Assembly: GCA_009773315.1 (NCBI GenBank)
Contig: WRPE01000035.1
Coordinates: 1-33,435 of the forward strand
Length of the DNA: 33,435 nt
Reading direction: 5' to 3'
Origin: Syntrophaceae bacterium
GTDB taxonomy: Bacteria; Desulfobacterota; Syntrophia; Syntrophales; Smithellaceae
Part shown: one piece after another, positions 22,782 to 24,669 of the stretch
How the letters are laid out: each line of letters begins with the position of its first letter
Numbering within the stretch: position 1 is the first letter of the stretch
Notes under the pieces: model-generated
What the model saw: only the letters and a program-made list of their open reading frames with translations
Database searches by the model: none
Told to the model about the DNA's origin: nothing
Program-made: the position numbers and the translations under genes

Positions 22782-22810
22782 GAACTAATTTGCCGGTATT
22801 GTTTTGTCAA
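22782..22810 (-). promoter_or_regulatory. Promoter of the TetR-regulated nitronate-monooxygenase-like gene
   Basis: On the - strand TTGACA (22805-22810), a 17-bp spacer and TAGTTC (22782-22787). Confidence 0.55.
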
Positions 22811-22868
22811 GCATTATTTTTTAATTTATAATCCTGGAACACAGGTAAGAAGAGGTCATTAATTTCTA

Positions 22869-22897
22869 TTGACAAAAGTCAGCAAAAAAATTATTGT
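22869..22897 (+). promoter_or_regulatory. cimA leader promoter
   Basis: TTGACA (22869-22874), a 17-bp spacer and TATTGT (22892-22897). It would start transcription near 22904, about 30 bp before the leader-peptide ATG. Confidence 0.55.
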
Positions 22898-22932
22898 ATA
22901 TTACATAAAATAATTAGGTATTTATTGGTGCC

Positions 22933-23013
22933 ATGAACACGTTCCTCATCAGACAAATAATAATTACTTATATCATAATTTGCTTCCCCATAGGAGCCCT
23001 GGCTGTGGAATAG
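22933..23013 (+). CDS. Isoleucine-rich leader peptide of cimA (attenuation)
   Basis: A 26-codon ORF between a promoter and a terminator hairpin upstream of cimA. Eight of 26 codons are Ile, in the pattern L-I-R-Q-I-I-I-T-Y-I-I-I followed by F-P-I; ATA is used four times. CimA makes citramalate, the committed step of the pyruvate route to isoleucine, so the codon bias matches the end product of the pathway. Ribosomes short of Ile-tRNA would stall in the run. A ribosome reaching the stop (23011-23013) would cover the 5' arm of the antiterminator. The Shine-Dalgarno is weak (GGTG close to the ATG, TAGG further off), the main doubt. Confidence 0.7.
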   Translation: MNTFLIRQIIITYIIICFPIGALAVE

Positions 23014-23053
23014 TTTCGACTTGAAATAAACAAATTCCAAACCGCTGCCAGGC
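22996..23053 (+). promoter_or_regulatory. Antiterminator structure of the cimA leader
   Basis: The last codons of the leader peptide (22996-23011: GCCCTGGC then TGGAAT) can pair with 23034-23053 (ATTCC and GCCAGGC at the two ends). This pairing includes AAACCGCTGCC, the 5' arm of the terminator, so the two structures are mutually exclusive. Confidence 0.6.
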
Positions 23054-23074
23054 AAACAAGGTAGCGGTTTTTTT
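23039..23074 (+). terminator. Attenuator terminator in front of cimA
   Basis: AAACCGCTGCC (23039-23049) pairs with GGTAGCGGTTT (23060-23070), 11 bp with one G-T pair, a 10-nt loop and a run of seven T. It ends 17 bp before the cimA ATG. Confidence 0.85.
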
Positions 23075-23091
23075 ATGAAAGAGAGGATTTC

Positions 23092-24669
23092 ATGACAAAA
23101 AACCAGATTTTGATTTACGATACGACATTGCGCGACGGCACGCAGGGCGAGCAAGTCACTTTTTCCGCTGAAGAAAAGCTGCGCATTGCCCAGCGGCTGG
23201 ACGACGTTCACTTCCATTATATTGAAGGCGGCTGGCCCGGTTCCAATCCTAAAGATATGCGCTTTTTTGAAATGGCAAAAACGGTAAAGTTTAAAAACGC
23301 GAAACTGACCGCGTTTGGCTCCACGCGCAAGCCGCACATTCGTCCGGAAGCCTGCCCGAACCTCAAGGCATTGGTCAGAGCCGAAACGCCGGCCGTGGCC
23401 ATCTTTGGTAAGTCCTGGGACCTGCATGTCACCGACATTTTGAAAATCAATCTGGAAGAAAACCTTTGCATGATTCGTGACTCGATTGCCTACTTAAAAT
23501 CTAAAGACAAGGAAGTGCTTTTTGACGCGGAACATTTTTTTGACGGCTATAAGCATAACCCCAGATATGCGACCCGGGTTATAAAAACAGCTTTGGACGC
23601 GGGCGCGGACAGAATTATTTTCTGCGATACAAACGGTGGCGCCATGCCCAACGAGATCACGGATATCATTAAAAAAGTGTCTTCGGTTGTTCCGCAGGCC
23701 ATGTCTGGCATTCATGTTCACAATGACTGCGGACTGGCTGTCGCCAATTCCATTGCGGCTGTCCTAGGAGGCGTGAAAATAGTCCAGGGAACGGTCAATG
23801 GTTATGGGGAGCGGTGCGGGAATGCTGATTTGATTTCATTGATAGGCAATCTGCAAATTAAAATGAAAATGAATTGTCTGCCGCCGGAATCGATTCGTCA
23901 GTTGACTAATCTTTCCCTGTTTATCAGCGACGTGGCCAATATCCCGCCTTTGATGTCCCGGCCTTTTGTCGGACGCAGTGCGTTCGCGCATAAAGGTGGT
24001 GTACATGTCAGCGCCGTCACGAAAAATTCGCTGGCTTATGAGCATATGCAGCCCGAAGTGGTCGGCAATAGCCGGCGCGTGCTGGTTTCCGACATGGCGG
24101 GTAAAAGCAATATTGCCTATAAAGCTAAGGCATTAGGGATCGATCTGGACAAGAAAAATGCGTTGGGCAAAGTCGTTCATCAGGTCAAACTGATGGAAGA
24201 CAAGGGCTATCAGTTTGACGCCGCCGACGGTTCCTTGTCCGTTTTGATGAAAAAAGCGATAGGCGAGTTTGTTGAGCCGTTTAATCTGGAGTGTTTTAGC
24301 GTGGTCACGTCGCGCACGCTCACAAATCCTTGTCTTTCCCAGGCCACGATCAAAATATCAGTGGGGGGCGAGGAGGAATTGACGGCTGCCGAAGGCAACG
24401 GTCCGGTTAATGCCCTGGACCATGCTCTCCGTAAGGCGCTGACTAAATTCTACCCGCAAATCAAGGAAATGCACTTGGTTGATTTTAAAGTACGAACTCT
24501 GGAAGGTTCGGAGGGCACGGCGGCAGGCGTCCGTGTTTTACTGGATTCGACGGATGGCTCTGAAGTCTGGAGCACCACAGGCGTTTCCGAAAACATTATT
24601 GAAGCCAGCTGGCAGGCGCTGATTGACAGTATCGAATACAAGCTCAGTAAGGACAAGAAAAAGAGGTAA
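23092..24669 (+). CDS. cimA: (R)-citramalate synthase
   Basis: A 525-residue member of the LeuA/CimA family, condensing pyruvate and acetyl-CoA to citramalate, first step of threonine-independent isoleucine synthesis. The HMGL-like TIM barrel opens with Y-D-T-T-L-R-D-G-T-Q-G-E (catalytic Arg and metal Asp), and metal-binding H-V-H-N-D and N-G-Y-G-E-R-C-G-N follow. Residues from about 390 form the LeuA-type regulatory domain (V-V-T-S-R-T to the S-W-Q-A-L segment), where isoleucine feedback would act. The length and W-P-G-S-N-P-K-D segment fit the CimA branch (Geobacter type) rather than LeuA. GAGAGGA precedes the ATG. An Ile-codon attenuator lies directly upstream. Confidence 0.93.
   Translation: MTKNQILIYDTTLRDGTQGEQVTFSAEEKLRIAQRLDDVHFHYIEGGWPGSNPKDMRFFEMAKTVKFKNAKLTAFGSTRKPHIRPEACPNLKALVRAETPAVAIFGKSWDLHVTDILKINLEENLCMIRDSIAYLKSKDKEVLFDAEHFFDGYKHNPRYATRVIKTALDAGADRIIFCDTNGGAMPNEITDIIKKVSSVVPQAMSGIHVHNDCGLAVANSIAAVLGGVKIVQGTVNGYGERCGNADLISLIGNLQIKMKMNCLPPESIRQLTNLSLFISDVANIPPLMSRPFVGRSAFAHKGGVHVSAVTKNSLAYEHMQPEVVGNSRRVLVSDMAGKSNIAYKAKALGIDLDKKNALGKVVHQVKLMEDKGYQFDAADGSLSVLMKKAIGEFVEPFNLECFSVVTSRTLTNPCLSQATIKISVGGEEELTAAEGNGPVNALDHALRKALTKFYPQIKEMHLVDFKVRTLEGSEGTAAGVRVLLDSTDGSEVWSTTGVSENIIEASWQALIDSIEYKLSKDKKKR

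Follow-up and report, generated by a model that had tools for sequence, protein, structure and literature searches.

The 33,435-nucleotide stretch analyzed here, referred to below as the window, carries on its forward strand a cimA gene at 23092-24669 that encodes a citramalate synthase of 525 amino acids (TIGR00977, 727.9 bits with a cut-off of 450). Citramalate synthase starts the threonine-independent isoleucine route of many anaerobes. Upstream of this gene, and also on the + strand, lie several features that had been pointed out in a first-pass annotation of the same DNA and that we located where they had been claimed. A sigma-70-type promoter, TTGACA-17-TATTGT, is present at 22869-22897 with a consensus match of 10/12, and a second promoter-like site, TTGTCA-17-TATAAT (11/12), is found further upstream at 22804-22832 and is seen in the closest relatives only. 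The leader peptide ORF, MNTFLIRQIIITYIIICFPIGALAVE, occupies 22933-23013, with its ATG at 22933 and its TAG at 23011-23013. It has 26 codons, of which 8 specify Ile (4 of these are AUA), and inspection of the sequence shows that the Ile codons are arranged as two Ile-Ile-Ile runs, at 22957-22965 and 22972-22980, and two single codons. The runs are the proposed stall sites. An intrinsic terminator follows at 23039-23074, with a stem formed by 23039-23049 and 23060-23070 and a run of seven T at 23068-23074.

The predicted antiterminator has a 5′ arm at 22996-23008, inside the final leader codons, and a 3′ arm at 23042-23053, which is common to the 5′ arm of the terminator. The existence of this helix and its exclusion of the terminator had been correctly anticipated, but the limits first assigned to it (22996-23011 with 23034-23053) were slightly too wide. 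The calculated energies are -18.0 kcal/mol for the antiterminator and -17.4 kcal/mol for the terminator (z = -4.1), so that the two are equal in strength and the antiterminator would exclude the terminator. A simple terminator scan, which allows loops of at most 8 nt, misses this terminator because its loop is longer. Folding of the whole leader as a single sequence gives only a slight advantage over shuffles (z = -1.7). At the Ile frequency of the window, 8.2%, the chance of finding at least 8 Ile in 26 codons is 8e-4. The Shine-Dalgarno sequence of the leader is weak in the window genome, and this counts against attenuation. From the window sequence by itself the case for an attenuator is moderate. 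It is the comparative evidence, rather than single-sequence folding, that carries the case for this putative attenuator.

We searched 59 genomes, among them that of the window, for CimA and then inspected the upstream regions. Fifty-two genomes of the same order, again with the window's own, had enough upstream sequence for the leader to be scored. An alignment of relatives had been suggested as a check by the first-pass annotation, and it bears out the proposal: 52/52 have an Ile-rich ORF, of 20-35 codons with 5-11 Ile among them, and a terminator a short way downstream of its end, and both alternative helices covary, as described below. An automatic detector of leader plus terminator flagged 48/52 of the real upstream regions and 0/208 dinucleotide shuffles; this result, together with the covariation, rules out a chance origin of the leader-terminator pair. 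A promoter-like match 5′ of the leader was present in 46/51 relatives, nearly always with TTGACA and a 17-nt spacer. The element is conserved across an order that is represented here mostly by metagenome assemblies. One genome that carries it, G084, consists of a single contig of 3.2 Mb.

A covariance model of the element (R1) finds matches in 137/155 genomes of the class, a number that counts model matches whatever gene adjoins them, many genomes having a second match before ilvB. Of the 18/155 genomes that lack a match, the assemblies of 16 yielded no CimA match, one (G080) has its cimA truncated by a contig edge and one (G063) is a true loss. In G063 (L283) cimA has no leader ORF: a degenerate terminator comes straight after the promoter, and the switch seems to have been deleted naturally. 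A hairpin kept without the Ile-rich ORF had been named beforehand as an outcome that would speak against attenuation; G063 is one such case, in which the terminator is degenerate as well, whereas 52/52 others keep the leader. The window genome has a single match to the covariance model in total, with no second copy of the element. Elsewhere, a second cimA with an attenuator of its own was seen in G068 (L173), and G090 (L187) carries two near-identical inverted copies of the cimA leader region on one contig.

The leader alignment shows that the Ile codons are preserved as codons. The six core Ile columns contain 275 instances of ATA, ATC or ATT and 3 of ATG (3/278). About 60 ATG would be expected of a neutral third position, because G makes up 22% of the bases in the region upstream of cimA. 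The presence of A, C or T and almost never G in the third position of conserved Ile codons indicates that the ORF is under coding constraint. AUA accounts for 137 of the 428 leader Ile codons (32%) as compared with 8.6% in the related cimA genes, an enrichment of about 4-fold.

Structure statistics were derived from an alignment of 49 leaders (A1), and in the comparisons with shuffles relatedness is ignored. For the terminator, 98.0% of cells are paired and 5 pairs show two-sided changes, with 56 two-sided-change cells as against 21.5 in such shuffles. In the antiterminator 89.6% of cells are paired, two-sided changes occur in 5 pairs, and there are 44 two-sided-change cells against 12.5, relatedness again being ignored in the shuffles. 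When either arm is slid by 1-3 columns, pairing drops to 31-58% for the terminator and to 32-71% for the antiterminator. Columns 130, 132 and 133, in the terminator arm, covary both with the terminator 3′ arm and with the leader arm, and changing together with both partners is what a switch requires. A candidate pause hairpin (22982-22987 with 22993-22998) pairs weakly in the same alignment; 77% of its cells are paired, there is little covariation and it is poorly conserved, a point that speaks against attenuation.

Based on these observations, we consider it highly probable that the element is a ribosome-mediated transcription attenuator tying cimA expression to charged isoleucine tRNA. In the proposed mechanism, transcription would start at about 22905 and the Ile-rich ORF would be translated behind the polymerase. 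With isoleucine plentiful, the ribosome would reach the TAG at 23011 and cover the last leader codons, so that the antiterminator could not form; the terminator at 23039-23074 would then fold and transcription would end before cimA. With isoleucine scarce, the ribosome would stall in the Ile-Ile-Ile runs between 22957 and 22980 and leave 22996-23008 free to pair with 23042-23053, which would block the terminator and allow cimA to be transcribed. The conservation of an Ile-rich leader and a hairpin switch throughout the order suggests that an ample supply of isoleucine very probably switches cimA off. Translation of the leader in vivo, the stalling of ribosomes and the response to isoleucine are what we infer from this arrangement.

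The geometry of the relatives fits this model of stalling and stop-codon masking, which had been put forward in the first-pass annotation. A ribosome covers about 12 nt downstream of its A-site codon. With this cover assumed, in 49/49 aligned leaders a distance of 17-22 nt separates the antiterminator arm from the last Ile codon upstream of it at which a stalled ribosome would leave it free, and in 45/49 a ribosome on the stop codon would mask the arm as far as its end. In the other four (G043, G045, G047 and G049) the leader ends about 18 nt short of the arm end, so that a ribosome there would cover the arm only partly, and this argues against attenuation.

If the leader codons were chosen to match the end product of the adjoining gene, as had been suggested for Ile and CimA, then leaders of other branched-chain genes should be rich in other residues, and this was found. 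In the window genome, leuA (TIGR00973) is preceded by a Leu-rich leader, MFSFTATTIMASALLTLLLGLALLSLLLKAVCPSFSGRH, and a terminator (L002 1156-1330, C69), and ilvB (TIGR00118) by a Val-rich leader containing VVVVV, MFLKDLDSGRIQIQAYVRLLVVVVVLMGSAARYL, and a terminator (L215, within 1101-1500, C69). With ties counted, the dominant leader codon is Ile in 52/52 cimA leaders, Leu in 26/26 leuA leaders and Val in 22/28 ilvB leaders. The cimA leaders were selected for at least 4 Ile, and those of leuA and ilvB for their content of Ile plus Leu plus Val, whichever residue was involved. Because of this unequal selection the fair contrast is provided by the leuA and ilvB leaders, which were chosen free of preference and come out as Leu and Val, not Ile. 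The match of Ile, Leu and Val leaders to cimA, leuA and ilvB shows that the codon follows the gene product and is not due to a general hydrophobic or AT-rich effect. These leaders form a clean natural set for the study of amino-acid specificity in leader codons, including the enrichment of AUA. The ilvB gene of other families in the order has instead an Ile leader similar to that of cimA. The odds seem to us evenly balanced that the order places the three branched-chain amino acids under three separate attenuators (Ile at cimA, Leu at leuA and Val at ilvB), with the ilvB leader alternating between Val and Ile from one lineage to another and the rare AUA codon tuning the cimA switch. The window genome also has a threonine-dehydratase-like frame of 343 amino acids that falls below the family cut-offs; an absence of threonine deaminase was rejected on this ground, and CimA may not be the sole route to isoleucine.

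Three other explanations of the cimA element were weighed. The ORF might be the gene of a small hydrophobic (membrane) protein, to which the terminator would belong, cimA being expressed by readthrough or from another promoter with no control by isoleucine. The peptide is indeed very hydrophobic and the terminator could equally end a small gene. However, the leader peptide has no Pfam match, and it is the Ile runs that are conserved and not the N-terminal half. In addition, the last leader codons covary with the terminator arm and the leuA and ilvB leaders are analogous in form with Leu and Val instead of Ile, all of which makes a membrane protein highly improbable. The lack of any aptamer-like conserved block in the alignment, outside the leader ORF and terminator, bears on a second idea, that the switch is set by a riboswitch ligand, by T-box-like binding of tRNA or by a protein, with the ORF incidental. 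Alternative helices by themselves would suit any expression platform, but the third-position pattern is that of a constrained Ile reading frame and the position of the antiterminator arm is tied to those of the Ile codons and the stop. No Rfam family reached its gathering threshold (the best leader match, Phe_leader, scored 18 bits with 55 needed, E 1.1), none did so in the relatives scanned, and the T-box covariance model had no hit, whether at its gathering threshold or with E values of up to 10 admitted. Identity with a known RNA family or a T-box was rejected on these results, and control by something other than a ribosome has, in our estimation, very little probability.

It might also be argued that the leader and hairpins are left over from a former attenuator, or have only a weak effect, and that cimA is now controlled mainly by enzyme feedback or from another promoter. 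A similar-looking ilvB leader of Streptomyces coelicolor is reported to be unresponsive to codon changes (PMC1262725), a precedent that counts against attenuation here, and the loss of the leader in G063 points in the same direction. A relic is nevertheless unlikely, given that 52/52 relatives have kept both helices as well as the Ile codons and that the covariance model matches more than 100 genomes.

Attenuation by a translating ribosome thus remains the preferred reading, and the element can be compared with known attenuators of the trp, his, ilv and leu type. It has a leader ORF rich in codons for the end product (8/26 Ile, with Ile dominant in 52/52), an intrinsic terminator that separates the leader from the structural gene, and a mutually exclusive antiterminator that shares one terminator arm; the stop codon is placed to mask the antiterminator (45/49) and an Ile stall to free it (49/49). 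A promoter 5′ of the leader is present by consensus match (46/51 relatives), with a predicted start site. As judged from sequence, the element has each defining feature of ribosome-mediated attenuators that was tested, the pause hairpin (77% paired) aside. The E. coli ilvGMEDA, ilvBN and leuABCD attenuators, with their leader peptides IlvL, IvbL and LeuL, likewise have runs of end-product codons and exclusive antiterminator and terminator helices, with the structural gene directly downstream. The present element differs from these in that its predicted target is cimA, the way into isoleucine from pyruvate, which is absent in E. coli, and in that Ile codons dominate alone, with no mixture of Ile, Val and Leu and no match to an Rfam leader family. 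The ilvB leaders of Actinobacteria (Corynebacterium ilvBNC and others; PMC1262725, PMC11857589) also consist of a short ORF with Ile, Val and Leu runs and a terminator before a branched-chain gene, but the gene and phylum are different, and here the last leader codons covary with the terminator arm. An attenuator peptide of Staphylococcus aureus (PMC5794164) is described as an amino-acid-matched leader controlling branched-chain synthesis and in this resembles the present one; it is leucine-rich, whereas here separate Ile, Leu and Val leaders stand on separate genes.

The mechanism is classic and its assignment here is well supported, and what appears to be new is its predicted occurrence on cimA, a gene for which we found neither an earlier report of attenuation nor an Rfam family. 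This agrees with the first-pass annotation, in which no description of attenuation for cimA was known. The literature searched was mainly that which is openly accessible, and a prior mention is possible; in one paper (PMC13158618) the relevant terms co-occur in contexts unrelated to cimA attenuation.

Among 80 CimA loci across phyla the detector flagged 6, of which 4 have the same leader and a terminator with the CCG arm. These 4 show 60-91% CimA identity and are all labelled deltaproteobacterial or Syntrophaceae, and the idea that the cimA leader has spread to other phyla was rejected on this sample. The flagged loci L094 and L105 look like chance. Outside the class, the covariance model matched in 33/379 sampled genomes of the phylum. 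Fourteen of these out-of-class loci were inspected, and the gene downstream of the match was of ilvD type in 8 (a dehydratase label that comes from our reading of the sequence), cimA in 2 (L202 and L205), leuA in 2, ilvB in one and an acyl-CoA dehydrogenase gene in one. The leaders of the ilvD-type dihydroxyacid dehydratase genes (L201, L203, L204, L206, L208, L209, L211 and L212), which occur in other families of the phylum, are mixed in Ile, Val and Leu and are followed by a similar terminator. An acyl-CoA dehydrogenase gene, not an obvious gene of isoleucine biosynthesis, lies behind an Ile-leader attenuator of the same type at two loci, L172 (G022) and L214 (G456).
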